Made by a program: the position numbers and the translations under genes
Part shown: positions 6,801 to 58,040 of the stretch, in pieces
How positions within the stretch are numbered: the first letter of the stretch is position 1
How the letters are laid out: every line of letters starts with the position of its first letter
The notes under the pieces: generated by a model
Databases searched by the model: none
The model's input: the letters and a program-made list of their open reading frames with translations, nothing else
What the model was told of the DNA's origin: nothing
Assembly (NCBI RefSeq): GCF_020520425.1
Contig: NC_079491.1
Coordinates: 29,069,449 to 29,133,448, forward strand
DNA length: 64,000 nucleotides
Direction of reading: 5' to 3'
DNA from: Spinacia oleracea
Taxonomy: Eukaryota > Streptophyta > Magnoliopsida > Caryophyllales > Amaranthaceae

Positions 6801-9800
6801 TAAGATTTAGTGCTGAAACCCTATATCTGAAATTTCCCACTCAAAAATTGATCTGCCATTTATTAGCAGAATGACACATCTTAAGGTTATCTAATTCCCT
6901 ACTCACCCAACAAACCGTGAACCAAACAACTATTATAACATGGAAATGGTACATTTTTCGTCTAATATGGCAAATTAGGTAGCAAACTGTGAACCTGTAC
7001 CCAATATCATACTAGCTAATCAGGTAATGAAGTTCAATATGCTAATTTGATCATTCTAGGTTGTGTGCCATAGTCATTTTGACAAATCTACGTTGTGTAC
7101 AAATCTGAATGAACTACGCTTGAGTTCAGAAGAACATAATGATTGGGGAGTGATTTAGGATACAAGGATTAGGTCCAGTGCACCCACGGATATTATTAAA
7201 TTATTATTTGATCATTTTCTTCTATTAAATATTTAATTAAACATTTCTCCTCCTATACACAGTAATTAATAAATTTGAACAAACTAATTTAATCATATAA
7301 TATGCCATTCTTGTCCTACTACCTACGTATTACATCTCTTATATTCTTAATAATATGCTAATTTGACCAAAATATTTAGTTAATATATTTTCCATTATTA
7401 AATATATACCGATTTGACTAAAATAACCAAAATTCATTTTTAACAAATTATCATTACATGGTATCTATTATTTCCATAATCTTTAAACCAATATTTTTTT
7501 ACATACATAACAAAATTTATATAAAAAGGAAAAAAAAATAAAGTGGAGAATTTTTTTAGGAAAAATGTTTTTGGTGGAATAATTTTGCACTAGGAAGTGA
7601 CCTGTCTCATTCCTAGTGTTTGTTTTAGTATAAACTTATAGATTTACTCGGATCTCTTTGTTAATATATATTAATTTTATTCCATTTCTTTATTTTTTGT
7701 ATATAATTTTTGTAAAAGATTCTCATTTCTGTCATTTACATATATAAATACTAGATTATATCCCGTGCACGCACGGATATTCTAAAATTATTATTTGACC
7801 GTATTTTTGATAAAATATTTATCCACTTAAAGCTAATGCATAATTAATAAATCTTGAGCATACTCATTTAATCATCTAATATGAAAAGTCCTACTTCGTA
7901 TTGTATATGCTTAATATGGTAATAAATATTGAGTAAGTATATTTTACATTATTGATATACCGCTTGACTAAAATATTTCCAGAGATATATATTATTGTCA
8001 TATTCTGTAATCCAATATTTTTTTCCATACATAAACCATATATATAAAAAAATAGAAACATAAAATAAATAAAGTGCATATATTTTAGGAAATAGTTTTT
8101 TGCCGGGAAAAAATTGCACCAGAAAGTGACATGTGTCATTCCTGGTGTCTGTTTTAGTATAAAGTAATAGATAGATGTGAAGGTGCAATTGATTATTGTC
8201 ATATATTTGGATATCAATATCTTTTAGCCAAAATTATTTTTATTAGGTAAATGAAGAAGTAAAAGATTACAATTTATTTAACTCAGATCTCCAAATTAAT
8301 TCTATATTAATTTTATTTCATTCCTTTTACGGAGTGTTTGACTATGTTATTGTTGGTAATTTCCATAACCATTCTATCAATCTCATTTTAAGAAATTTAA
8401 GGAAAAAAGAGAAAAAAAAAACATTTTGTCGGGAAAATATTGCACCAAGAAATGACACGTGTCATTCCTGGTGTCTGTTTTAGTATAGTGTAATAGATAT
8501 CCCAATCTTTTTGGTGAATGCAAAAAAGAATTGACAGGCAGGTAGGTTCTGTTTAGATGATCATTAGTATCTTCTGATTTTTGTGTTTGGAGGATGTGTA
8601 TGCTTTATTGCTGCTTGATTATCTTGGTCCTGCCTGCCTCTTTAGTTGTGGTTATTCAGTCAAGATTATTTAACAATGTTATCAGCCACTGTCTCTAGGC
8701 AACGGGTGGTTGGATAAAGGCTTGAGGGAGGGGTGGTAGGTTCCTTTTAGGGATATACGTGCATGTTAGGTTTAAGAATTAAGATGTGCGGCATGTGCTT
8801 GTAAAGTTGTAAGCGCATGCCTGTCTGTGCAGACAGGTTTTAACATTTATATGTGGGGAAATATATTTGCTACTTTTTCATCCTGGTTTCCTTCATTTCC
8901 CACCACTTTTATTATCCCTCACAATCATCCCTCATCTGAACTCTGAAGGGGCTAGTGTCTTGGAGTACACAAAAGAATGCATCCTGGATAGTGTACTGAA
9001 TTAAGGAAATTATCTTGTCAAAACAAATTATTGTTTAGAAATAATTTCTGGAGGAGTTCTATCCCAAAGCAAATTTGGCAAGAATCTTATGATAATCTTC
9101 CTTCAATATGCAGAATTTTATTGATAGTTTTCCTTTATAATTATTATTATTATTCAGACACTTGGTAGTATTTTATACATGTGTTAGAAACCTGTTAATA
9201 CCCCAAATCTTTTTGGGGCTAAGGCTTTGTTGTTGTTGTTGTTGTTAGAAACCTGTTAATATTCATTAGCTAGTTACTTGTAATCAATAAACTATTACTT
9301 GTGAGTTTAAATGCCAGTGCAATTTATTTGTCAACTGTTGATGCCAATCAATTACTAGTCTTAAAAAAGATAATGGTGTGGTTATGGAAGGAGTTACGTG
9401 TGTAACTGGAATATGCATTTCTGTGACGTTTTTTATAAGCTTTTGTTTTTTACTCGAAGAGATTGTTGAATTTTTTGTTTGTTTCCCTGATTGATTATTG
9501 TGGAACTAAATCTTTTGTTTTGTCGCTTGTCGTAGATTTCTGATCACCTAATTACAATAAATCTATTTCTTTCTTTCATCCATTGGAAAATAACTCTATT
9601 TTGTGTACTTATAATTTTTGATTGTTGGGAAAATAATGTGCATTTGGCTTTCTCAGACACCTTGGTCCGCCAGGCAGCTATGGTCTCCAAGTGCATACTA
9701 CTCATGTATTACAAAAATAGCAGAGGAAGGAATTACCGTAGGCAGGTAGAATATAAACATTTTTTGTTTGTTTTATGGCGCTCATATGTTCAATGTTTTA

Positions 9801-38809: not shown

Positions 38810-38814
38810 TCTAT

Positions 38815-38827
38815 TACTATATACTAA
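38815..38827 (+). repeat. Left target-site duplication of LINE 1
   Basis: TACTATATACTAA is repeated exactly at 51986-51998. The pair marks the LINE insertion into the 5' end of the small Helitron. Confidence 0.85.
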
Positions 38828-39018
38828 TAGGGAGGAGTGTGGGGATCGTAGGGGAGGAACCTGTTTGTGGAAAAAGAAAGGATGCAATGGAAATAGATGA
38901 TGATTTCTTGGATGAGGGAGGTACGCGCAGCAAAAAGTCAAAGGCAGCTCAGGAGATTGAGGCAAGGAGCACGATTACAGTAGCGGAGGTTGCCCTGCAA
39001 CCCCGCGAACATCAATGA
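38828..39018 (+). pseudogene. LINE 1 ORF1 remnant (C-terminal end)
   Basis: About 60 codons remain, basic and acidic in turn (GKRKDAMEIDDDFLDEGGTR, then SKKSKAAQEIEARST). They end in a TGA that overlaps the ORF2 start as ATGA. ORF1 of plant LINEs is an RNA-binding protein; its N-terminal domains lie in the part lost by truncation. Confidence 0.6.
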
Positions 39019-41829
39019 TAGGCCTTGCTTGGAACTGTCGGGGATTGGGGAGTCCTCGAGCAGAGAACGCTCTTCGGGGCGTAATTAACATCGAACATCC
39101 CCACTTTGTCTTCCTCTCGGAGACAAAGTTAAAAGGTAAAGAGTGGGAGGGAGTTAGAAGGAAAGTGAGACTAAAGAACTTTATCGGTGTGGATTGCAGT
39201 GGTGAAGGGAGACATAGGGGTGGCTTAGTTATGTTTTGGGACGACGATATAAACCTTTCTTATGTATCATCGTCCCAAAACCACATGGATTTTGAGATTA
39301 GTATGGAGTCGGGAACAAGGTGGAGACTGACTGGACTATATGGTTTTCCTGAAGATGAGAGAAAGGAAGATACATGGAATCTAATGAAAAACCTTAGAGG
39401 TGAGAGTGAGCTGCCATGGGTTTGCCTGGGAGACTTCAACTGCATACTTAATCATACTGAAAAGATAAGTGGCAACCAAAAATCACAAAGGCAGCTAGAT
39501 GGCTTTCGTAACGCTGTTGCTATTTGTCAACTGAGAGATATAAGGTTTGAAGGTATCCCCTTTACATGGACAAACAATAGGGTGGAGGGGGACAATGTCC
39601 AAGAAAGGCTTGATAGAGCTATGGTCACCTACTCATGGTTTAATTTGTTCCCATGCTCGTGGGTGGAGCACCTACCACGACGACGTTCTGACCACGTGCC
39701 TATAAAGCTAACAGTCCAGGAACAAATCCGGGTCCGAGGAGATAAGAAACGGCGCAGGCGATGCTTCCGTTTTGAAAAGGAGTGGTTGAGGGAGGACGAG
39801 TGCGGTAACATAGTGGATGAAACATGGAATGACATTGAGGGGTGTGATGTAAAGTCAAAAATTAATGCTTGTGCTGGTAGATTGAGAACGTGGAGCGGTA
39901 CCCGATCATATGATTTCATGAAGGAAATAGCTACTAGGCGTGAGCAGATCAGGTCCCTAACGAGCATGCCCACCACAGAAGGCACGCTAGGGGAGATTAA
40001 AAAGATAGACGCAGAAATTGATGAGCTGGAACACCGTGAGGAGACGTATTGGGCCCAACGTAGCAGACAGAATTGGGTCCGAGACGGAGACAAAAATACG
40101 GCTTTCTTTCACAAAAAGGCGGAGGACAGGAGGAGGAGAAACACAATTAAAGGGGTGTTCGATGAGGGTGGGTCTTGGCGGACGGATGAAGGGGAAGCAG
40201 AGGCAGTGTTTGTTGCTTACTTCAAGTCACTCTTTGAATCCAATAATAATATTGAAATGCTCCCTGTGATAGATAAGGTGCAGCCAAAGGTATCTCAAGA
40301 GATGAATCAAAGGCTAGAAGAAATGTATACGGAGGAGGAAGTAGTAATAGCTCTCAAACAAATGCATCCTACCAAAGCTCCAGGGCCGGATGGGATGCCC
40401 GTGCTCTTCTACAAAAAATACTGGCCCATTGTTGGCAAGGAGGTAACTTCGTATGTTCTGAATATTCTGAATAATGGTGCCCCGATCGAACAGATAAATC
40501 ATAATCATGTGGTCCTTATTCCAAAAAAGAAAGTTTGCCAATCCACAAAAGACTATCGCCCTATTAGTTTGTGTAATGTTTTATACAAACTCGTCTCTAA
40601 GGTGATATCAAACAGATTAAAATTGGTCCTCCCGAAGGTAATTAGTGAGTCACAAAGTGCTTTCGTACGGGGGAGTCTTATTACAGACAATGTTCTGGTG
40701 GCCTATGAAATGTTTCACTATCTCAGGAAAAAGAAAAAGGGGGCGAAGGGTTTTATGGTAATGAAGCTGTACATGAGTAAAGCTTACGATAGGGTGGAAT
40801 GGGCATTTATTCGAAGTATGATGTTAAAGCTGGGTTTTGGTGGTGGTGTTGTAGAGCTCATTATGAGATGTATTTCGTCGGTTTCATACTCCATTCTTTT
40901 CAACGGTTTTCCATCTCAAATGTTTCTACCAGGGAGGGGGTTGCGTCAAGGGGACCCAATGTCACCATTTCTTTTTCTTATTTGTGCTGAAGGTTTTACT
41001 GCACTGCTCCGGGATGCGGAATCGCGGAAATTGATCAATGGGGTTAAGATTGGTAGACACGTCCCTCCTATCTCACACCTATTTTTTTGCAGATGACAGC
41101 CTTTTATTTACTAGAGCTTGCGAGACGGAGGCGGATGCGATTCTTGATATCCTCACATCTTATGAGGCAACCTCGGGACAGAAGATAAATTTGGAAAAAT
41201 CGGAGGTCTCTTTTAGTCGGAATGTATGCGCCAATATGCAGAATACGCTTCAGATGAAGTTAAACTTTACGACTGTAAATGAGCACGAAAAATATCTTGG
41301 TCTCCCCACTTACATCGGGAGGTCTAAGAAAGTTGTTTTCCAAGTTATTCAGGACCGAGTATGGAAGAAGATTAAAGGATGGAAGGAGAGGTATCTATCG
41401 AGAGCGGGTAGAGAGGTCTTACTCAAGTCTGTAGCCCAAGCAATACCAACTTACGCGATGCAATGTTTTAAGCTTCCGGAGGGAGTATTGAACAATATGA
41501 TATCTTTGTGTCGAAACTTCTGGTGGGGACAACAAGGTAATGAGAGGAGGCTGGCCTTGATTAGTTGGGACAAAATGTGTAAGTCCAAAGATTCTGGTGG
41601 TTTGGGACTTCGCGATCTAAGGGCCTTTAACTCGGCTCTCCTTGCAAAACAATGTTGGCGACTAGTTACAAAACCGGATTCCTTCGCAGCAACAGTTTTG
41701 AAAGGTAAATACTTTTCGAGAACAAATTTTTGGGATGCTAAGGTACCTCAAGATGCAAGCTACACATGGCGCTCTATACTCTCGGCTAGGGAGTTAGTAC
41801 AGGAGGGATCACGATGGATTGTGGGGAAT
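39015..41829 (+). pseudogene. LINE 1 ORF2, 5' part: endonuclease and reverse transcriptase
   Basis: The ATG at 39015 opens an AP-type endonuclease: WNCRGLG (N7), FLSETKL (E36), LGDFNCIL and RSDHVPI. The reverse transcriptase follows with KAPGPDGMP, DYRPISLCNVLYKLVSKV and GLRQGDPMSP. There are two damaging changes. Motif A reads KLYMSKAYDRVEW, with Tyr where the family has the catalytic Asp. One extra T in a T run at about 41083-41089 shifts the frame right at the FADD active site (first frame stops at 41096; the FADDSLLF reading continues in the next frame). It ends where the gypsy LTR begins. Confidence 0.88.
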
Positions 41830-44311
41830 TGTAATACCCCGAAATTTTTAAACTCGATTTATTAAAATCAAAAATATTTATTATCTTGATTTCGTTTTAA
41901 ATAATTACAAATAATCGAATTTCGTTATTTTAAACGTTTTTACGATTTATTTTAAACGATAAATTCATAAACGAAAATTTATTTATTTTCGTTAAAGATA
42001 TTTAATAAAGAATTATTTTAACTAAACATTTCTATTTTTAGTAGTTTCCAAAAATAGCAACAAATTTCAGATATTTTGGTCAAACCTTGTGAAATTACTA
42101 AAAAGCCCTTAGAAGAGCCAAAATCTCATCTCTCTTTCCTTGCTCTCCACGTACAAATGGAGTGAAGAAATTTTCCTCCTTCTCCTTTTCCCTAAAATCA
42201 GTCCCCATTCAATTGCAAAGCCCAAATTGTCTTCCTTTTCTTCAATTACAAAAACCAGTTTCCATTTCTGAAATGCAACATCAAAAAAAATTCAAAACCA
42301 AAACCAAAAATCAATTTCACTGCCCTTTGTTTCAGGTGATTCGAACCACCACCGAGGCAGCCACCTCAACCACCACTGCTCCACTGTCTACCTCCGTCCG
42401 CCGCCACTCGACCACCGCACACCCCACCGCACACCCACCGTACCTCCTTCTCCCTCTCCTTCTCTCACGTAACCCCTGCTCTCCCCTACCCCCTCTTTCT
42501 TCGCCTCACCGCACCACCCACGCAGCACCACCACTTCCGACAACCCTCACCATTTCGTGAACCAATCTCCGCCCCAACACCACCGTCTAACCGCCGTGCC
42601 TCCGCCCAGAACCAACCGAAAAACGCCCCCTCGAACTTCCCCTGTCTCCTTGTTTCGCACCTCCCTCTCTCTCCTTTTGACCGTCGTGCCACCGCACGAA
42701 CACCGCCCTCAATGTCGCCCTTCCGGCGCTGCGCCGCCCAGCCTGCTGCCTTCCTCCCTCCTCTTCCCCTCCCCTGTTTCGTGCGCTGCTTCCAGAGAAC
42801 CAAAACCAATTTTTGGTTTTTGGTTCTTGGTTTCATTTCCCTTAAAACAAAATTAAATGGGACATACTAGTTGGGCTTTTGGGTAAGAAACTAACTTGTT
42901 AATTTCAGATTTTCTAATTTATTTAGTTTTCATGTTTTAATAAATTTTTATGATAAAATTATTTACTAATAAAATCGTTATTATTTTCAGGCTTAATTAT
43001 TAAATATCAATTTTTTTCTAATTACTACTTAACAAAATAGAATTTAAATAATATTTTCACAAAAACCGATTTATGAAATATAAATAATTATTTCGATTAT
43101 TGATATTTAAATTATGAAATTATATTTTTACTAAAAATTCGTTATTTACAAATTCGTTAGTTATAAATTTAAGATTTTATAAAATGTTGATTTTAAATTA
43201 TTTATCGATTTAGTACTAATTCAATGATTTAATATTTTTGAAAGAAATTGGACTTGGAGCTCAGGACGAACGAACCAAGGAAAATAAAACCCTTAGCAAA
43301 TCGCAGAAGTGAGGTAACGGCTATTGCTAGTACCCGCAATTCCCTTATAAATGCGTTTATGAAATTACAATGTTATGATTGATTTATGAACTGAATGTTT
43401 TGACATGTTTTATGAATTGCGGGAAATGAAATGTGATTTGATTGGATTATTTATTATAATATGATTGATTGAAATTCTTATAAAACGATCTTTATAAGAA
43501 ACCATGAATGAAATGATGTTTCTATGATGCCAGGAAAGAAATGATATTTTATTGATCCCAGGATCTATATGATGTTTTATCATGATCTCATGATCTAAAG
43601 GAATCATGTTACTCCAACTGAAGTAAAAAGGCTAAAATGTAAAATTAAACGAAACATGATAAATGAAAGTGAAAGACCTAGTCCGTTTGGCAGTATATGT
43701 TCACAGGTTACGATTCTCGGTCATGCATGTACCCATGGGGCATCCGCCCATTGAGCCAAGGCTCTCATGTTTTCGGGCCAAGGCCCCATGTTTATGGACA
43801 GCGGTCCATCGTGGAAGACGTTCCACCATGTCATACTTGCCACGGCTAGCATGTGCACCCTAAAGTTTATAAATGAATTAAATAAAGGACTTTATAAATT
43901 GTTTTACATTATTCTATTCTCCCTGTGTTATTAAATAAAATGAATTGAAATGAATTTACGTTGCTAGAATAGTTCGTTACTGAGTCTTCGGCTCACCGTT
44001 TTTGTTTTCTGTTTTAGGTACCGCTGGGAACGATGGGAACGAGTAGTGGCGAGGATTTCACTTTAATAATTAATATTCACCTAGTTCATGCTTAAGGATT
44101 TAATAGTTATTCAAAGACTTTTAATAAATTACATACTTTTATTTTAGTAATATAAATGATTATTATAAAATTTTGGGATTTAATAGCTTTTGATTGATGG
44201 TTGCCTTGTAATTCCCAAGAGGGAATTACGGCAGGTAATGTCCCGACCAAATTAGGTTAATTCCGCTGCTAATTATGCATTAATAATTGAATTAGAGGTC
44301 GGGGTGTTACA
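41830..44311 (+). repeat. Left LTR of the gypsy element
   Basis: This 2482-bp LTR is nearly identical to the right one. By eye about 20 single-base differences and a few small indels are seen. It contains a CT-rich, Pro/His-biased open stretch (42350-42830) and very AT-rich halves. It lacks a 25-bp segment present in the right LTR; the missing piece is bounded by CCTCTTCC repeats, as expected for a slippage deletion. Confidence 0.92.
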
Positions 44312-45179
44312 GTTTGGTATTCAGAGCCAAGGTTCTGGACCACAAGTGCTAAACCTTACGGGTTTTGCATGTAATAGAATTCATTAGGCTTTAAGCAAAG
44401 AGTTTTAAAGAATAAGTTGAAAAAGGAGTACTCTTACAATTTTGTTAAGCTAAAATGAATATGAGTGTGAGTGTAGGAACGGGATGAACGGGTTTATTTT
44501 CTATGATTTATTTGCTTTCATTTGTTGAGACATGTTATGTTGAATGATGTCTGTTGTCTGTCGAGGCTATGAATGATGTCACCAAGGGCTCGCAACGAGC
44601 AATCCGTTCACAATGATTATACCATATCGATGCAATTATGAGTGTTTTCTTTCCTAGTGATTGTGAATTAGAAATTGTCGATGTTAGAGAAATTTGAGTT
44701 TTATTATCCTTTGACCTATCTAGATTTGATGTAATTTTGGGAATAAATTGGTTGACTAAATATAAAGCTAACATCAATTGTTTGGGGCTTAGTGTGACCA
44801 AAATGGCAAATGAGGTTAGGATTTCGTCCCAAAAGTTAGTGAAGAAAACCAATGATTCAAAATGTCTCTACTTTGAAAACCCCTAGTGACCGATGGTGAG
44901 TTTTTTTGGTTATTCTTGTAGTGTTGTCGATCATCCATCACCGATACAACTATCGTTTGTGAATACGCAAACGTTTTCCAGAAAAGAAACCTAGTATGCC
45001 TCCACCAAGAGAATTAAACTTTAGCATTAAGTAATTACAAGGTCCACCCCTATTCCTAAAGAATGACACCAACTAAGTTGCAAAGAATTGAAGAAACAAT
45101 TAGATGATTTACTTGGATAATGGTATATTCAAGTGAGTGCATCACTTTTGGGAGCCCTGTCATATTTGTGAGGAGAAAT

Positions 45180-45950
45180 GATGAAACGTTGAGGTTATGC
45201 ATAGATTATAAAGAGTTGGACAAGAATAAATATCCTTTATTCCGCATTGATGATTTGTTTGACTAACTTCGAGGTGTAAAAGTGTTTTCAAAGATAGATT
45301 TGAGGTCTGGAACCATCGACTTTATAATAAACTTGAGGATATTCCAAGGACAACCTTTAGAACCAATCATAGTTACCATAAGTTTGCTGCAATACCTTTT
45401 GGGTTAACTAATGCATCAACTGTATCTATGGATTTAATAAACCGTATTTTCAAAGCATACCTTGATAAGTTTGCAGTTGTTTCCATTGATGATATTTTGG
45501 TATATTCTAAGAGTATTGAGGAACGCGAGGAGCATTTGAGAAAAGTGTTAGATACATTGATTGAAAACCAGTTGTATGCCAAGTTGTCAAAATATGAATC
45601 TTGATTAAGGAAATGTCATTTTGGGTCAGAGTATGTCAGATAAAGGTGTATCTATTGATCTTGTGGAAACAAAAGCAATTGTGGAATGACCTAGACCAAC
45701 CAATGTCCCTGAAGTATAAAGTTTTATTGGGTTTAGGTGGATATTATCAAAGGCCGAGACTTCTTTTTTTCTCTAAGATTGCCTTACCTATGACCCGACT
45801 AGTTAGAAAGAATATCAAATTTATGGGGAATGATGATTGTGAATCTGCAATTCGAGAACTTAAGAGACGTATCACCATTGCCTATCTCCTTGCCTTCCAT
45901 CTGGAACCGAGAGATTTGTTGTTTATAGTAATACTTCTAAACATGGAATA
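45180..45950 (+). pseudogene. Gypsy reverse transcriptase / RNase H remnant
   Basis: Readable blocks in order are [24 protein letters not shown] followed by a stop, [31 protein letters not shown], and after frameshifts KIALPMTRLVRKN and RELKRRIT. These match the Ty3/gypsy polymerase order; the active-site DD is present but the frame is broken many times. Integrase is not convincingly visible downstream (46000-48110). Confidence 0.7.
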
Positions 45951-48125
45951 GGATGTGTCAAAATGGAAAAGGAAAGTCGTAGATGATGCTTCTCGCCGAC
46001 TCAAAGCCCTTGAATAGAATTACCTTACTTATGATCTCGGTATATAATACCCTACTAGAAAAGCTAATGTTATTGTAGATGCTTTGAGTCGAAGTCTACC
46101 TTTTTCTGAGCCAACCAAGATGATATGTAAGACATGAAATCCGTGTTCATTAAGAATAAAGGAGATGTTTAAGTGCGTTAGTAACGAGACCAACTGTGAA
46201 TTATTAAGGATTTACGATAGGAACAAATTAATGATCGTTGTGGAAGTCATGACCATTATATTCGAGATTATTTTGAGCTATCACCATCAGCTACACGTAC
46301 TAAAAGATCGTCTATTGACAACGACCATAGAACCAATGACATTGTTAGTATACCTCAGAAACCCATGTCTGGAGTAGATTCTATGACAAAACCACATGAA
46401 AAAGGCAGAAATGATACCAATGGTCCCTGAAATTCTCTTTTTCTAATTATTCTGTAATTTCCCATGATATTCGTTGATATTCCTTCATTTATTATTTGTC
46501 ATTTATGTTCAGATTTTGTACCAAATAAGTTGATAGGTGTGGGTTATTGAGTACTAGGTAACCTGAAGAAGTCCAGGCATATTGGAATGATGTGATGTGA
46601 GGAGGATAGGTTAACAAATATGAGAAAGATTGACAGTTAATCGTTAAAAAAAAAGGGGTAGATTTCGACAATGACTAAGAGACAAAAGATCGAAGTTGGA
46701 AGTATCAGATAGTTATGGAAAAGAAATTTTACTTGCTTAAGTGTCCAAATATTTTTTTGAAAAGAAAACATGATATAGACCTATTATAAGAGAGCAAGAT
46801 TTTAGATTTCATTGAGATGAGTGAATTTGAGGAAATTATTTTAAGGATGGTAACATGAAAGTGTTACCTTGGGAACCCCAATCTTATGTGCAATACGATG
46901 ATGTATGAGTATTATTGAGGATCAGGATAAACTATTATGCGTCATGGAATTGGTGCAAAAGTACTTTTGAAGGTTTGTTCGAGATATGAATATATTAAAA
47001 GTTGTAACCAATCACCATAAAGTTAGCTGGAACCATTTTGGGATTTTCAATTATAGGTGAGATCTTGATGAATCACAATTAAGACCCGTGCTTTGATACA
47101 TTTAGTAAACCTACCTATGGACAGTTTGAGAATCATGGAGGAACCTAAAGAACAAATTTGAGGAAAATACAGGAGTTCATGAAGTTTTGAAATGTGTCAA
47201 GTTGGCAAGAAAGTAGCTTCGAAGGCTATGAAATGGCAATCTAGAGTGAACGACCTAAGCTAATCTATGATAAAGTATCTACCGTGTATTTTGAGTATAT
47301 ATAGAAATCTCAACCAGGCTATGTCAAGAATCGAGTCACGTAATTTGAACTGAGCCCTCCATTGTTGAAAGAATTTGACTTAGGAGAGAAAATGTTGAAT
47401 ACCATTGTTTTGAAGTGAAATAAAAGAAAACGCATGCTGAAGGACTAAAAGATGATTGATATGCCTCTATCGAGGAAGCTAAGAAAGTTATCAAGAATTA
47501 ATATGTCCGTAAGGTTAATGATATCAATTAATGTTAGAAATTTGAAAGGAATTAAGAATGATTGAGGATTGCAATGGAATTCAGATTAGGAAATCAACAA
47601 ATGACATATCTATAGGACCAGGTAGGCTGAACTAAGTTTTATGGGAGCTAGATTGTTTCTGATACAGGCACGCTTGATTGCTTAGCATCCTCCGAAAATC
47701 CGAGGTTTGTCGACTTAAAATATAAAGGATAGGTAACAAAGTCATATGTTTCACGATGTATTCTAGTCACATGATTGGACGCAAACCCCTGCAACGAACG
47801 TAGTCAACAAAGTTATTTAACGTAGAAGAAAAGATCGAATTTCGAAAGCAAAACGAATCAGGTAATGAAAGTCAACGACAAGATTCCTGCAACAGAGGAG
47901 CTCAATAACAAATGAAAGCGAAACATCTTCAAATAGTCGCCTTAACTATGTTTTCTGTAATGCATCAATCATGCGTATGCGTGAGATCAAATGAGTGATT
48001 ATGACATGTATGTTTTCAATGAATGACGAACAGAACGATCAAGTGTGAATTTTATGATTTCTAGAATCGGCAAGTTCGACTGAGCTCCAGTTTCGAGGAC
48101 GAAACTTTTCCTAAGGGGGTAAGGA

Positions 48126-50635
48126 TGTAATACCCCGAAATTTCTAAACTCGATTTATTAAAATCAAAAATATTTATTATCTTGATTTCGTTTTAAATAA
48201 TTACGAATAATCGAATTTCGTTATTTTAAACGTTTTTACGATTTATTTTAAACGATAAATTCATAAACGAAAATTTATTTATTTTTCGTTAAAGATATTT
48301 AATAAAGAATTATTTTAACTAAACATTTCTATTTTTAGTAGTTTCCAAAAATAGCAACAAATTTCAGATATTTTGGTCAAACCTTGTGAAATTACTAAAA
48401 AGCCCTTAGAAGAGCCAAAATCTCATCTCTCTTTCCTTGCTCTCCACGTACAAATGGAGTGAAGGAATTTTCCTCCTTCTCCTTTTCCCTAAAATCAGTC
48501 CCCATTCAATTGCAAAGCCCAAATTGTCTTCCTTTTCTTCAATTACAAAAACCAGTTTCCATTTCTGAAATGCAACATCAAAAAAAAAATCAAAACCAAA
48601 ACCAAAAATCAATTTCACTGCCCTTTGTTTCAGGTGATTCGAACCACCACCGAGGCAGCCACCTCAACCACCACTGCTCCACTGTCTACCTCCGTCCGCC
48701 GCCACTCGACCACCGCACACCCCACCGCACACCCACCGTACCTCCTTCTCCCTCTCCTTCTCTCACGTAACCCCTGCTCTCCCCTACCCCCTCTTTCTTC
48801 GCCTCACAGCACCACCCACGCAGCACCACCACTTCCGACAACCCTCACCATTCCGTGAACCAATCTTCGCCCCAACACCACCGTCTAACCGCCCTGCCTC
48901 CGCCCAGAACCAACCGAAAAACGCCCCCTCGAACTTCCCCTGTCTCCTTGTTTCGCACCTCCCTCTCTCTCCTTTTGACCGTCGCGCCACCGCACGAACA
49001 CCGCCCTCAACGTCGCCCTTCCGGCGCTGCGCCGCCCAGCCTGCTGCCTTCCTCCCTCCTCTTCCCTCCGCCTCGTCCATTTCCTCTTCCCCTCCCCTGT
49101 TTCGTGCGCTGCTTCCAGAGAACCAAAACCAATTTTTGGTTTTTGGTTCTTGGTTTCATTTCCCTTAAAACACAATTAAATGGGCCATACTAGTTGGGCT
49201 TTTGGGTAAGAAACTAACTTGTTAATTTCAGATTTTCTAATTTATTTAGTTTTCATGTTTTAATAAATTTTTATGATAAAATTATTTACTAATAAAATCG
49301 TTATTATTTTCAGGCTTAATTATTAAATATCAATTTTTTTCTAATTACTACCTAACAAAATAGAATTTAAATAATATTTTCACAAAAACCGATTTATGAA
49401 ATATAAATAATTATTTCGATTATTGATATTTAAATTATGAAATTATATTTTTACTAAAAATTCGTTATTTACAAATTCGTTAGTTATAAATTTAAGATTT
49501 TATAAAATGTTGATTTTAAATTATTTATCGATTTAGTACTAATTCAATGATTTAATATTTTTGAAAGAAATTGGACTTGGAGCTCAGGACGAACGAACCA
49601 AGGAAAATAAAACCCTTAGCAAATCGCAGAAGTGAGGTAACGGCTATTGCTAGTACCCGTAATTCCCTTATAAATGCGTTTATGAAATTACAATGTTATG
49701 ATTGATTTATGAACTGAATGTTTTGACATGTTTTATGAATTGCGGGAAATGAAATGTGATTTGATTGGATTATTTATTATAATATGATTGATTGAAATTC
49801 TTATAAAACGATCTTTATAAGAAACCATGAATGAAATGATGTTTCTATGATGCCAGGAAAGAAATGATATTTTATTGATCCCAGGATCTATATGATGTTT
49901 TATCATGATCTCATGATCTAAAGGAATTATGTTACTCCAACTGAAGTAAAAAGGCTAAAATGTAAAATTAAACGAAACATGATAAATGAAAGTGAAAGAC
50001 CTAGTCCGTTTGGCAGTATATGTTCACAGGCTACGATTCTCGGTCATGCATGTACCCATGGGGCATCCGCCCATTGAGCCAAGGCTCTCATGTTTTCGGG
50101 CCAAGGCCCCATGTTTATGGACATCGGTCCATCGTGGAAGACGTTCCACCATGTCATACTTGCCACGGCTAGCATGTGCACCCTAAAGTTTATAAATGAA
50201 TTAAATAAAGGACTTTATAAATTGTTTTACATTATTCTATTCTCCCTGTGTTATTAAATAAAATGAATTGAAATGAATTTACGTTGCTAGAATAGTTCGT
50301 TACTGAGTCTTCGGCTCACCGTTTTTGTTTTCTGTTTTAGGTACCGCTGGGAACGATGGAAACGAGTAGTGGCGAGGATTTCACTTTAATAATTAATATT
50401 CACCTAGTTCATGCTTAAGGATTTAATAGTTATTCAAAGACTTTTAATAAATTACATACTTTTATTTTAGTAATATAAATGATTATTATATAAATTTTGG
50501 GATTTAATAGCTTATGATTGATGGTTGCCTTGTAATTCCCAAGAGGGAATTACGGCAGGTAATGTCCCGACCAAATTAGGTTAATCCCGCTGCTAATTAT
50601 GCATTAATAATTGAATTAGAGGTCGGGGTGTTACA
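48126..50635 (+). repeat. Right LTR of the gypsy element
   Basis: This 2510-bp LTR is preceded by the polypurine tract and followed by the GGAAT target duplication. The extra 25 bp relative to the left LTR lie at about 49064-49090. Confidence 0.92.
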
Positions 50636-51953
50636 GGAATGGTAGGAGGATAAGATTCTGGAGGGATGCTTGGCTCAAGGGTGTCCCTGGTGGGCGTGTC
50701 TTGTCACCACCACCGACTGAAGAGATGGCACGAAGCCTAGTTGTGGAATGGAGGAATGAGGAAGGTACGGGTTGGGATATCCAAGCAATCATGAACACCC
50801 TAACCAATGCTGAAGTTGATGCCATTAAGGCCACCCGTATTGCTGTAAGTGAACAGGAAGACTTCTTACCTTGGCTCCACACAAAAAATGGAGTCTTCAC
50901 AGTAAAAAGTGCTTACCACCTAGAACTTCAACGTCGGAATGATAATGTTGAAACCTCCACACCTGATGGTGCAAAAAAGATGTGGACAAGAATATGGAAA
51001 AGCAACGTACCACAAAAAGTGAGAAACTTTGTGTGGAGAGCAGTCTGTAACGGGCTGCCGACCATGGACATACTCGCAAGACGTGGTTTGCAGGTTGATC
51101 GTGCTTGCCCGAGATGTGGCGACGCTCCCGAAACCATCACTCATATGGCCCTCCTGTGTAAGGAAAACAAGATGGTGTGGCGCCTCTCGCCATTACGCCT
51201 CGATATAGATGAATGGCATACCAACCTAATAGATTGGTGTGAGAGTTTTATAAAGAGTTGCAGCTCGCCCCATGCGTGGGATTTGATGATGGTGTTTATG
51301 TGGCAAGCATGGAACACCCGCAACAAGTGGGTTTTTGAAAAGAAGAAGGTTGATCCGGTGGTTACATGTGCAAGAACAATGAACCTTATTGGCGAGTATG
51401 AGGCAGCGTGTGCTCGAGAGACCGCAGCAACTGCTACTGGTACATCTAGCGTCCAACATTGGCAGCCCCCCCCCCCCCTTTGGTTGGACTAAACTTAACA
51501 CCGACGCTGCTGTAACAAGGGATGGCAAGGTTGGTTTTGGAATGGTTGTTAGGGACAATGTAGGAGATGTCCTCATGACGGCAGGAAGGAAAAGCACTGA
51601 CGGAGAAGTGGTTTTGGTAGCTGAGGCGAAAGCACTACTTTTTGGCTTGCACTTTGCATACGAAGCTGGGGGTTAGGAAGGTGCTAGCAGAGGTAGACTG
51701 CTTAGGACTGGTGCACTTGTTACAGAGGAAGACTACAGAACTCTCAGAAGCTCAAGTAGTAGTTAACGATATTTGCAATTTTGCTCTCAAGCTTGATTCT
51801 TGTGTTTTTGGTTTTATTAGACGATCATGTAATAAGGTAGCGCATACTATGGCTAGTGTCTCCCTATCCTTTGAGGAAGACTTAGTTTGGATGGAGGATT
51901 GCCCCCCAAGTGTAATCCCGATTGTCCTTGCGGACAAAACTTTGATTGAATGA
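50636..51953 (+). pseudogene. LINE 1 ORF2, 3' part: zinc-binding region and RNase H
   Basis: The reading resumes right after the gypsy element with GNGRRIRFWRDAWLKG. It passes the region typical of plant LINE C-termini: KSAYHLELQRRN, IWKSNVPQKVRNFVWRAVCN and CPRCGDAPETITHMALLC. A run of 14 C at about 51465-51478 shifts the frame. The RNase H domain then follows: KLNTDAAV, VAEAKALLFGLHFA and, after another shift near 51665, LAEVDCLGLVHLL and RSCNKVAHTMA. It stops at 51953, about 25 bp before the A tract. Confidence 0.85.
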
Positions 51954-51985
51954 AATGGCTACCTATATTTTCCCGTCAAAAAAAA

Positions 51986-51998
51986 TACTATATACTAA
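51986..51998 (+). repeat. Right target-site duplication of LINE 1
   Basis: This is the exact second copy of TACTATATACTAA, directly after the LINE A tract. It continues into the Helitron sequence AAGAGACATCAGGAATGACA. Confidence 0.85.
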
Positions 51999-52200
51999 AA
52001 GAGACATCAGGAATGACACGTGTCAATTCCTAGTGCGATTTTTTCCCGCCAAAATCACTTTCCCAAAAAAAGTGTATCTGTTTTATTTTATTTTTATTCT
52101 CTACCTTTTTTATAAACTATTTATGTATGGAAATAAAATTTTTAGTTTATAAATTATGGCAATAATAGATACGACGTAATAATAATTATTCTAAATTGTA

Positions 52201-52528
52201 CTCCATCCGTCCCGGAATACTCGACCCGGTTTGACCGGCACAGAGTTTAAGGGACTTGAATTGACTTATTTAATTTAATAGGTAGTAGTTGATAGTGGGG
52301 TATTATTTTAATGTAGTTAGTGGAAGGTGGGTTAAGAGGTGGGGTTGGGGGAGAGTAGGGGTTGAATTTTTAATTATTTTTTGTATGGAATAGGGGGTAG
52401 GTGGGTTAATAGGGGTGGAGTGAGAAATAATATAATATTGTTAGAATATTTCCATTTTTAGAAATAGGTCAAGTATTAAGGGACGGCCCGATAAGGAAAA
52501 CAGGTCAAGTATTCCGGGACGGAGGGAG
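52201..52528. mobile_element. Stowaway MITE
   Basis: The inverted ends are CTCCATCCGTCCCGGAATAC on the left and GTATTCCGGGACGGAGGGAG on the right, inside a TA/TA target duplication (52199-52200, 52529-52530). At 328 bp, non-coding, it has the Stowaway signature CTCCCTCCGTCCC. It inserted into the 3' half of the split Helitron. Confidence 0.9.
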
Positions 52529-52759
52529 TAATATTTTAGTCAAATCGCTATATTAATAATGGAAAATATATCACTCAATATTTTAGTCAAATTAACACAT
52601 TAGCATTTTAAATATGCATATTAGATGAATAAACTTAAACGAGTATGTTAAATATGTTATAACTATGCAGTAGTTTGGGGATATTCATTTACATATTTTG
52701 TGATTTTTTTTAATCAAAATCCGTGCGTGCACGGGATCTAATCTAGTAAGGCACTAAGG

Positions 52760-53678
52760 TAGTGTTTGGCCAAGCTCTTGAAAGTGTTTCTCAACTTGAG
52801 AAACTGAAATTTGGCCAAACAAGGTGTTTCTTAGAAATAGAAGCACTTTTCCCAGAAGCTCAAATGGACCCAAAATAGCTTCTAGAGGGTGTAGAAATAG
52901 AAGCTCCAATTTGGAGCTTCTGAAAACAGTTTCTCTCGGAGCTCTAATTGCTCATTTAATGAAAGTTTTTCTTGGCCAATATTACCCTCACACAATTCTG
53001 AAAATCCACAATTGCCCCAAAAAAACCCATGTCTAACAGTAGTTCTTCCTCACTTCTCACCTCTACTTCTGCAATTGACGGGACAAACTCCCCTCATCGC
53101 ACACATTCACAAAAGTTGAGACCTAAATACTAAAATGCAAACCCAAAACCAAATAAATGAACCCCCATTTCGTTCAACCCAAAAACAATTGTTTGATTTA
53201 TTTGACTAATTTTTTCATTTTAGTTAATTCAATTCGTAGATCTGTAAAAGCATTATCCATCGCTTTATACGAATATAATTTTGTGGCGGCGAGGTTATTG
53301 AATGTTGTGGTGATTATGATGGAGAGAAATAGATTAAGAAAAATAAAGTTTGACGGTGGCGATATCATTGAAGGTTGTAGGCTAGATGATGTTGGTGGTT
53401 GAGAACAAGGTATTTGACTGGTTGTTACCTTGGATTTTTTTATTTTTTTAGAACAAATTACTGTAGTACTTTTGTTTTTAAAGAATACATCATAAGCCAG
53501 AAACTCTAAAAATATAGAAAGGGCCAAACAATATAAATTGTTTCTATTTCTTAGAAATAGTTCTCCAAATTTGTGGCCAAACACTTTAGTTTATCAAAAG
53601 TGTTTCTCTAGAAACAGTTTTTGGAGAACTACTTCTAGGAAACAAAATTTGTTTTCCAGAAGCTTGGCCAAACAGACT
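52760..53678. mobile_element. TIR element with long imperfect inverted ends (hAT-like)
   Basis: The left end is TAGTGTTTGGCCAAGCTCTT. The right end, read on the other strand, is AGTCTGTTTGGCCAAGCTTC. Inverted similarity continues inward, with GTTTCT/AGAAA and TTGGAGAACT/AGCTCCAA motifs for over 150 bp on each side. TIR sequence suggests hAT; no 8-bp duplication is evident. The interior holds no transposase. Its right edge abuts the stop codon of LINE 2. Confidence 0.6.
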
Positions 53679-56600
53679 CTAGTTGTCATTGCTCAAAGCA
53701 TCAAACGCTAAAATATCAGCTACAGCTTCTGGATAGCTACTCATCCAAACTCTCCTCCCAACAGCCCATAGCAGTCTATGTGCTAGCTCATGTGCTACTT
53801 TATTACAATGCCTCTTGACAAAAGACCAACTAATGCTATTAAAAGACTCTACCAAATGGTTAATATCCTCTAAAACTAGATGAAAGTGGCTCCATCCTTC
53901 CTCATGCTCACGAATTGCGGTAATCACATTCAAGCAATCACTCTCCACAACCACATCCCCAACTCCTATCTCTGCTGCAAATTGCAACCCATAGAGAACT
54001 GATTTTAATTTGCCTCAGCTATCTTTGCTTCCCACGGGTCTGTACATTGCCACACAGCACACGCACTCACCGTGCCATCTGCTGCTCGAATTACAGCACC
54101 AACACTCGACCCCATCCCTTGCAAGCAGCCCGCATCAACATTAACTTTCACAGTTTCCCCCGTAGGTGGTGTCCAACCTGCTGTTGCAGTTGCAATATGC
54201 TCTCCCCCTTCGCCAAGTCCACCTTCCTCCCTTCGTAGCTCACTCATCAGCTTGTCCACATACTCCAAGTTGCTTTCCACCTCAAAATTCTCCCCTTCCA
54301 TAACCCATTTATTCCGAGCTCCCCAGATAATCCAACATAGCGCCATGAAGTATACACAGTCATTCCTTGAGAGCTTTGTAAAGCAGACTTCAACCCACTC
54401 TATGAAACTCCGGTACCTCCCCTCAACTTCATCACACAACCTTCTCCTCTCCCACACCAGTCGAGCAAAAACACACTCTTGCAGCGTATGCACCACCGTC
54501 TCCTCAGCATTCCCACACACTCCACACACCCTATCAACCATCGCCACTCTCCTATGCAAGACATCTTTTACCGGCAGCGCTCCCGCATAAGCTCTCCAGA
54601 AGAAGACCTTAATGCGAGGTAAGGCATGGGCATTCCATATGATGTTCCATAATCCCCTTCGAACCACAGAGGAGTTCGCGCTTGCCTCTCCATCCTCCTC
54701 CCCAAATATTGCTCTATAAGCCAACCGAACTGAGTATATGCCACTCTTTTCTAAATCCCAGAAAATCCTGTCCACCAGCCTTCGAGTACTAGTTGGTATA
54801 CCTCGTATGCGCTCACATTCAAATGGGAGAAAGACTTGATTGAGTCGAGCCATATTCCATCCACCATGTACAAGGTCCAACAGATCACTCACCAGCATAT
54901 TCTCGTCCTCCCCTCCACGCGGTGAAATAACCAAACCTGTTTGGGTGGACGGGATCCACCTATCCTTCCATACCCGAACCTTCTGTCCATATACTATCCT
55001 CCATCTCATCCCCCTACTCACCACCCACCTAGCTCCCCATATTCCTCGCCAAGTGTAGCTTGGATTGGAGCCCAATTCTGCTGTCATGAACTCTCCATTG
55101 GGATAATATTTAGCCTTTAGGACTTGTTCTACCAAGCTGCCAGGGGCGACAATAAGCCGCCAAGCCTGTTTACCCAATAGCTCCATATTAAACATCTTAA
55201 AATCTCTAAATCCCATCCCACCTGATGCCTTCGGTTTGCATAACCGTTTCCAAGCCACCCAATGTAACTTTCTCTCCTCTTTCTTTTGGCCCCACCAAAA
55301 CTGTGAAACTAGCGACCGCAACTCATCACAAAAGGAAGAAGGGAACTTGAACACACTCATCGCGTAGGTAGGGATAGATTGGGCTACCGCCTTAATCAGG
55401 ACCTCCCTACCCGCTTTGGATAAATACATCCCCTTCCACCCTTGAAGCATCTTGCACACTTTCTTCCGAACACTAAAAATTACTTTTTTTGACCTCCCCA
55501 CTACCGTGGGGAGGCCAAGGTATTTGTCATGAACATCCACTTCCTTCACCCCCAAAACTCTAGCTAGCTCCTCCCTCTTGCTTAAAGCGACTCCTTTGCT
55601 AAAAGAAACTGTGGTTTTGTCAAAGTTTACCAACTGACCCGAGGCCCTTTCATAAATGACCAACACTTCCTTAATCATAAGAGCTTCTTCCCTACTTGCC
55701 CGTGAAAAAATAATACTATCATCCGCGAAGAACAAGTGTGATATCATTGGGGCGTTAGGGACCACCCGAATGCCATGGATACTACCTCTTTCCGTAGCTC
55801 TCCGAATCAGACCCGACAAGGCCTCCGCACACATGATAAAGAGGTACGGGGACAATGGGTCCCCTTGCCTCAACCCCCTTCCTGGTTTAAATTCTGCTGT
55901 TGGGAGCCCATTCAATAATACCGAAAACGACACCGACTCCACACAATGCATGACTCTATCAATCAATCCCCATCTAGACCCAATCTCTCCATGACCACTC
56001 TAAGGAAGCCCCAGTCCACTCGATCATACGCCTTTGCCATATCTAGTTTCAATGCCATCGAACCATCTACATGCATCGAACTTTTCATGAAGTGAAATAT
56101 TTCGAAGGCAACGAGGATATTATCCGTTATAAGTCTTCCCGGAGTAAATGCACTTTTGTTTACTGAAGCTATATCACTAAGAAATATTTTCAGCCTATTG
56201 GCTAAGACCTTCGACACTAGCTTATATATCACATTACACAGGCTTATAGGTCGAAAGTCCACCATTTTATCCGCCCCTTTCTTCTTAGGTATGAGTGCAA
56301 TGAAAGTGTGGTTTACTGACTCCGCTAGCGGCGCTCCCCGTAGCACAGCCAAGACCATATTCGAGACCGAATAACCCACTATGTGCCAATACGTTTGGAA
56401 AAAGAGTGGGCACATACCATCTGGGCCCGGTGCTTTGAGCAGATGCATTTGTTTTAGCGCTTGAAACACCTCCTCCGACCGGTACAGGGCTCTCAACATA
56501 GAATTCATAGATTGCATGACTCTGCCTTCTATTCCTTGTAAGCTGACTCCATGTCCACACACCCTGCAGAGGCAAAGAGGGTCGAGAAATAGCTGTTGGC

Positions 56601-57687
56601 AGTTCGGCCCACCTCGTCACTGCCCCCCTTTCGCATACCATCATCATCTATCAATCCAGCAATGAAGTTTTTTTGTCTCCTCTGCGACGCCTTCCTATGG
56701 AAAAAGGAAGTGTTTTTATCTCCTTAAAATAACCATATGGCTCTAGATCTTTGTCTCCAGTACAGCTCCTCATGATGCAATAAGTCAGCAATATCCCGTA
56801 CTATCTTGCGTCTAATTGCCAACTGGGCTGCGTTGAGGTTCCCTTTGTTAAGATCCTTAAGCTTTTTCCTCTTCTTTCTCAGCTCCCTAAACTTGCGTCC
56901 AAACTCCTCGTCATTCCAGGCCTTCAGGTCCGCGGCACAGAAAGAAATCTTTTCCACCGCCGATGGCCCTCCTATCAACCATGCCTCATCAACAATTGCC
57001 TCGCATTTATCATGCTCAGTCCTCACTTGTTCGAACAGGAAGGGTCTATCCCGCCTCCTCTCACCTTCCTACCACTACTCAAAACAATTTTAATCGACGC
57101 ATGGTCGGACCACTCCCTATCTAAGTTCACCCCCACAGCTTTATCAAACATTTCAATCCAATCATCATTCACTAGGGCTCTATCCAGTCTGCATTGAACA
57201 ATGTCATCACCTTCCTGCTCATTGTCATATGTATATTCATAACCCGTGAATGGGAGGTCACGCAATTCACTTGACACCACTGCCTCCCGGAAGTTGGCCA
57301 TTTGCCATGTGGCCCTATCTCTTCCCTTTTTTTTTTCTCACAGTCATACATGATCTCGTTAAAGTCCCCCATGCAAACCCAAGGAGCCCTAACCTGAGAA
57401 GCTAATTCGGTAAGCAATTTCCAAGACAAAATCCTCTTTTGGACTTCGGGCCACCCATAGAAACCGGTGAACCTCCACTCCCTGTCCCCTAACCCCTCCC
57501 TCACCCACACATCAATATGATAAATCGACATGGATCTCAAATCCACCACTAGCTCCTTCCTCCATAAAAGAGCCACTCCCCCTGATCTTCCACAACTATC
57601 CACCGCAATACTGTCGTACCCCATCACTTTTGCTTTCACTTTCATAATCTCGCTACTACTAAGTTTCGTCTGTCAAGAAGACCAAAG
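53679..57687 (-). mobile_element. LINE 2: second L1-type retrotransposon, truncated at both ends
   Basis: On the minus strand it carries endonuclease, reverse transcriptase and RNase H domains. The 3' end stops at the ORF2 stop codon against the TIR element, with no 3'-UTR or A tail. The 5' end is cut by the copia LTR at 57688, removing ORF1 and the first ~20-30 endonuclease residues. It differs clearly from LINE 1, so it is a separate lineage. Confidence 0.85.
53679..57687 (-). pseudogene. LINE 2 ORF2 (endonuclease-RT-RNase H), frameshifted
   Basis: In transcript order: an endonuclease start with NTLVFLT, a frameshift, then SGGVALLWRKE, RFTGFYGWPE and CMGDFNEIM (57645-57300), and SDHASIKIVL. 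The reverse transcriptase has LLKAPGPDGM, DFRPISLCNVIYKLVSKVLA, LDMAKAYDRVDW (motif A Asp kept) and, after a one-base shift near 55965, GLRQGDPLSPYLF and HLFFADDSIIFSR. The C-terminal part has WLxxAGREVLIKAVAQ-type sequence, FFWRAYAGALP and CGVCGNAEETVVHTLQEC. The RNase H (KVNVDAGCL, then a shift near 54008, VVVESDCLNVITAI, RHCNKVAHELAH) ends at TAG 53681-53679. At least four frame breaks make it inactive, though long segments remain open. Confidence 0.87.
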
Positions 57688-58040
57688 TGTTAGGTTATGA
57701 TTCATATGACAATTCATAAATCATGCGGAAAAACCATAAACCCAGGAAAACATATTATTTACACATAATCATTTAGCATAGAATAGATGCATACTCTTTG
57801 TTGCGTGCCTTCCCTAGCTGCGCCCGAACCGAACAAGAACAAGTCTTTAGGACTCCAAGTGTCGTCCCTCCGTAGATAGTCCACAACACGTCCGGATCCG
57901 CCTTAAGATTGACCAACTAGAATCGCCCTTAAGGTACTAGAATTTTCGGCAATTTGAGCAAGATGTGTGTTTGAATTTTCTCTCAAAAACTCACTTTGAA
58001 TACTTTGAAACTTGTGTTATAAATTGTGAGCCCTAGCCTC

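Follow-up and report, generated by a model that had tools for sequence, protein, structure and literature searches.

A Ty3/gypsy element within a LINE within a Helitron, and a Stowaway-type MITE beside them, at one locus of spinach

A stretch of 13.9 kb in the genome of spinach (Spinacia oleracea) starts and stops as a single Helitron does, and holds three other transposable elements between its ends. Is it one large unit, an error of assembly, or a stack of separate insertions, and in what order did these arrive? The locus lies in a window of 64,000 nucleotides, the whole stretch of DNA that was analysed (NC_079491.1, positions 29,069,449 to 29,133,448 of the forward strand), and positions below are counted from its first letter. 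By the borders read in the sequence, four elements are nested there: a Ty3/gypsy element within a LINE within a Helitron, and a Stowaway in the right part of the Helitron (Table 1). The original prediction had described this arrangement, with TC...CTAG ends of the Helitron between A and T, exact 13-bp duplications around the LINE, GGAAT duplications around the gypsy element and TA duplications around the Stowaway; the element classes and all of these borders were found as described. We concluded, with a probability of about 0.96, that the locus is formed by four independent transposition events stacked on one another, those of a Helitron, a LINE, a Ty3/gypsy element and a Stowaway-type MITE.

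Table 1. Elements of the nested locus and the basis for each, in window positions.
Feature	Position	Strand	Basis
Helitron left piece (5' end, TC...)	38810..38827	+	preceded by A (38809); alignment with 20 relatives at their 5' ends
LINE left part, 5'-truncated, including 5' GGAAT	38828..41829	+	Pfam domains; relatives extend upstream
Ty3/gypsy LTR retrotransposon, 8806 bp	41830..50635	+	LTR pair, GGAAT duplication, protease and RT fragments
gypsy 5' LTR (TGTAATACCCC...GTTACA)	41830..44311	+	
gypsy 3' LTR	48126..50635	+	
LINE right part, with the zinc-binding RT region and RNase H-like domain; A8 at its 3' end	50641..51985	+	
LINE target-site duplication TACTATATACTAA, 3' copy (Helitron sequence)	51986..51998	+	exact match to 38815-38827
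Helitron middle piece, its last two bases the TA of the Stowaway duplication	51999..52200	+	aligns with relatives
Stowaway-type MITE, 328 bp, CTCC...GGAG	52201..52528	.	inverted ends; TA at 52199-52200 and 52529-52530
Helitron right piece: 3' hairpin (52721-52734) and CTAG end	52531..52746	+	

The Helitron (38810-52746) has TC at 38810 and CTAG at 52743-52746, a 3' end of the CTRR form, and it is inserted without duplication between the A listed in Table 1 and a T at 52747. A GC-rich hairpin, CCGTGC-GT-GCACGG, is placed 12 nt before the element end. The Helitron was rejoined in silico by removing 38828-51998 and 52201-52530, which gave 436 bp, the length that had been predicted. The rejoined sequence is one base short beside the Stowaway site (52196-52200), where all 20 aligned relatives have a base (G in 18, T in 2).

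The rejoined sequence was searched against the whole genome, which gave 46 rows from 40 scored candidates. Among the matches listed, 31 of the 46 covered 1-435 or 1-436 with 89-98% identity, the best was 98% identical across exactly 436 genomic bases, and 43 of the 46 crossed both rejoined sites. From these rows 18 short stretches were picked; they contained 23 BLAST rows, and after exclusion of three partial ones (two in locus L079 and one in L087) 20 Helitron copies long enough to align were left. None of the 20 carried an insert at the LINE or Stowaway site. In the 16 relatives aligning over 1-436, the preceding base was A in 14 and the following base was T in all 16; one of the two exceptions abuts another Helitron directly, CTAG running into TC, and the other has G. 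At the 5' end, two of the 20 relatives had no match at the first two bases. The original prediction had proposed that the rejoined sequence should align end to end with other Helitrons, and so it does, on better copies than the one it had named. That 421-bp Helitron, at 7751-8171, is not a close relative, the identity being only 73% (296 identical of 407 aligned columns). It is thus a member of a different subfamily and was a weak control.

Other arrangements of Helitrons were observed during these searches. The copy at 7751-8171 is flanked by a second Helitron-like copy at about 7167-7642 and, on its other side, by a 75-bp Helitron 5' head at about 8423-8497, both on the minus strand. In L079 (C1:135061700-135062440), L087 and L091, Helitrons of the same family are found inside or next to one another: a full copy is abutted by a 133-bp 5' head, the 5' end of another Helitron-like element holds inserted copies between its bases 10 and 11, and two complete copies are joined with CTAG followed directly by TC. 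Such an abutting pair would be explained if a Helitron entered an A|T site immediately ahead of a TC already present. At C4:114553080-114557462 (G000), four copies in one orientation, with starts about 0.8, 1.6 and 1.6 kb apart, form a local repeat array. In a search for an autonomous partner with the same ends, the genome contained 154 matches to Helitron_like_N, and 150 candidates were scored. Downstream of two of these matches (L099 and L100) the 3' end of the present Helitron was not found with up to 4 substitutions allowed, in stretches that may end too early; the L100 stretch carries a different hairpin and CTAG.

The Stowaway, whose name we take from its end sequence, has inverted arms of 40 nt that are 85% complementary, and no ORF of at least 100 aa is listed inside it. 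We read 20 other copies, and all 20 were flanked by TA on both sides; 19 were 97.3-98.8% identical to the window copy and one was 96.0% identical. Such low divergence within the family suggests a recent amplification. A majority sequence was made from 19 of the 20 copies, omitting one whose match starts at base 6. The window copy differs from it at 4 of 328 bases, each difference being common to at least one other copy, and so few differences would fit a young insertion. Since none of the 20 aligned Helitron relatives has the Stowaway, it most likely arrived after the Helitron did. That it came together with the Helitron from the source copy is a quite improbable alternative: the Stowaway lies inside the Helitron, so nesting alone does not fix its arrival, but it is missing even from the 98% identical relative, and none of the 50 non-self rows listed for the Stowaway extends more than 33 bases past it into the Helitron.

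The LINE is bounded by the exact 13-bp duplication TACTATATACTAA, whose 5' copy is Helitron sequence at 38815-38827. The motif occurs exactly twice in the 64-kb window when both strands are searched, and the chance agreement of one given pair of 13-base flanks was calculated from base composition as about 7e-8. Without the gypsy insert the LINE is 4347 bp long. Its left part contains the tail of ORF1, then the endonuclease and most of the reverse transcriptase of ORF2, with Pfam matches to Exo_endo_phos (1.3e-9) and RVT_1 (5.2e-22) in one frame. The right part matched zf-RVT (1.2e-19) and RVT_3 (7.4e-13), and ends with A8 ahead of the duplication. The reading frame changes twice, once near 41.03-41.1 kb and a second time between 51.49 and 51.62 kb. 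From this domain order, that of plant L1-type LINEs with an RNase H-like domain, we presume the LINE to be of the L1 type. The usual L1 target consensus is TTTT/A, and the target site here is a poor match to it.

In relatives of the LINE, ORF1 continues upstream; it is open in L010 and L024 and broken in L011 and L032, and that of L010 matches DUF4283 and zf-CCHC_4. Because the 5' end of the window copy falls inside ORF1 while its relatives continue, this copy is 5'-truncated with only the ORF1 tail kept, which the original prediction had not noted. Its closest relative among the matches found shares 87% identity with the last 0.7 kb. A genome search with 51200-52050 returned 43 rows: the window itself, two inner LINE pieces, 12 LINE 3' ends, all stopping at 51984-51992, and 28 Helitron 5' ends with starts at 51982-51986. 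Since the ends of relatives cluster there, the LINE and Helitron families meet at the junction given in Table 1.

The gypsy element interrupts ORF2 of the LINE. It has LTRs beginning with TG and ending with CA, and the duplication GGAAT is at 41825-41829 and 50636-50640. A 5-base flank match has a chance of about 0.002 and is weak evidence taken alone, but the border is supported because the duplication coincides with the borders of the family: in an LTR search of 40 rows, all 38 rows from elsewhere begin at 41823-41830, the other two being the LTRs of the window. Among the fetched loci, all five non-self LINE matches cross the gypsy site unbroken, and the ORF2 parts on its two sides share one frame.

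The interior of the gypsy element (44312-48125, 3814 bp) is short and degraded, with broken frames. A protease fragment (RVP_2, 5.3e-8, the end of the protease) is followed by a reverse transcriptase fragment (RVT_1, 2.4e-10), and the latter piece (45263-45601) matched Ty3-G Gag-Pol (PDB 7q5b, 1.9e-6) and a reverse transcriptase/ribonuclease H (4ol8, 3.1e-7). No match to integrase or RNase H was obtained in any of the seven forward open pieces of at least 45 aa, the pieces to which the scan was directed, 19 reverse-strand pieces being left out. By the positions of LTR matches, LTR starts that are neighbours on one strand form eight pairs readable as single elements, seven of them spaced at 6.2-6.9 kb (6.3 kb in the window) and one at 8.6 kb. 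Two copies were chosen for short spacing, and almost everything retrieved of their interiors aligns with the interior in the window at 80-86%. These alignments suggest that short interiors are shared by a set of copies, which are perhaps non-autonomous.

These borders determine the order of events. The LINE interrupts the Helitron and holds the gypsy element, so it is younger than the former and older than the latter. The arrival of Helitron, LINE and gypsy element in this sequence is fixed by the nesting, not by divergence, and we found no evidence contradicting the nesting. The place of the Stowaway relative to the LINE and the gypsy element is left undecided by nesting and by divergence. 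We tried to date it against the LINE by divergence, which gave no order, all four of its differences being common to other copies. In both respects the outcome agrees with the original prediction, which had given the order of the three and left the timing of the Stowaway against the LINE open.

Instead of receiving the LINE, the Helitron could have captured it, with or without the gypsy element, and brought it here as cargo. Helitrons are known to capture sequence (PMC2267711), but a LINE taken up in this way fits poorly with the duplicated Helitron sequence on both of its sides, with the empty site in all 20 aligned relatives, or with the results of searches for another composite copy, and we regard capture as very improbable. 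In those genome searches, which covered a limited number of best candidates and skipped very common words, a second composite copy was not found. Among the matches listed, no genome row other than that of the window crosses the left junction, at the right junction the other rows reach at most 7 bases across, and the left flank has one match, the window itself. Since a second copy was not found, it is probable that the composite has never been mobilised as one unit. With an intact Helitron end on either side of the 13.9 kb, rolling-circle copying could in principle take up everything together; we consider this highly unlikely, and if true, it would spread the LINE, the LTR element and the MITE together. 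A misjoin in the assembly, of halves of different Helitron copies connected through unrelated repeats, against which the original prediction had cautioned at 38827 and 51985, has a negligible probability even in a repeat-rich region with a common Helitron family, for it would not be expected to leave exact 13-bp and 5-bp duplications, LINE and LTR borders that coincide with family borders, and halves that rejoin to one 436-bp member.

The insertions were dated with substitution rates of 1.3e-8 and 6.5e-9. Between the two LTRs (2482 and 2510 bp) there are 20 substitutions (13 transitions and 7 transversions) and 4 gaps. The divergence (K2P 0.0081) corresponds to 0.31 to 0.62 My for the gypsy element. 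The tip branch of the Helitron, 0.0092 substitutions per site, gives 0.7-1.4 My at the same rates, which suggests an upper bound for the Helitron if its source was another copy. This branch comprises about 4 substitutions, and the support values around it are 54-79; the changes strictly private to the window Helitron are no more than 2 substitutions and 2 small indels. It is not significantly longer than the age of the gypsy element (P of 4 or more, 0.10), and the dates for both are soft. According to PMC6337768, 83.7% of spinach LTR elements were inserted within the last two million years, and thus the age of the gypsy element is usual.

With four independent events as the preferred reading, the locus was built as follows. 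A 436-bp non-autonomous Helitron first inserted between A and T, presumably with a Rep/helicase protein from elsewhere acting in trans. An L1-type LINE, truncated at its 5' end, then inserted 5 bp inside the Helitron and made the 13-bp duplication, probably through target-primed reverse transcription. Into its ORF2 a Ty3/gypsy LTR element integrated about 0.3-0.6 My ago with a 5-bp duplication. A Stowaway-type MITE of a near-identical family entered a TA of the Helitron, most likely some time after the first step.

Beyond the right end of the Helitron, another repeat (52753-53686) starts about 6 bp away, and many of its relatives in the genome start at or near its border. By its ends we assume that it is perhaps hAT- or CACTA-like. 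It was tried as one more layer of the nest that overlaps the end of the Helitron, and no matching duplication was found. Farther on, 54000-58000 has higher G+C and a strong negative GC skew; as a guess, it might be another LINE on the minus strand.

The nested composite is real and well resolved but ordinary, every one of its four elements being of a known kind. Nesting is common in plant genomes, and the meaning of this case reaches little past the locus. The clean relative chronology, exact to the base, makes it a possible test case for annotating nested repeats, and it sets limits to the age of the LINE, for which the closest relative among the matches has no more than 87% identity.

Each element was compared with its known counterparts. 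The Stowaway agrees with Stowaway MITEs in its CTCC...GGAG inverted ends, TA duplication and many near-identical copies, and no difference was seen. The Helitron shares with non-autonomous plant Helitrons the TC...CTAG ends, the 3' hairpin 12 nt from the end, insertion between A and T without duplication and the many copies; it does not differ in kind, and the present copy is interrupted twice. Like plant L1-type LINEs with an RNase H-like domain, the LINE has an endonuclease, a reverse transcriptase, a zinc-binding region and the RNase H-like domain, as well as the A8 3' end, a target-site duplication and the 5' truncation, whereas its ORF2 is broken by frame changes and by the gypsy element and its target is unlike TTTT/A. 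With Ty3/gypsy elements that have short degraded interiors, the gypsy element has in common TG...CA LTRs of about 2.5 kb, a 5-bp duplication, and protease and then RT fragments with a Ty3-like RT; its own interior is 3.8 kb with broken frames, similar to those of the two copies chosen for short spacing. For nesting itself, PMC6911290 counts 1491 pairs across 12 plant genomes, a study of LTR-in-LTR pairs. Later elements lie inside earlier ones there as they do here, whereas the present locus mixes classes.
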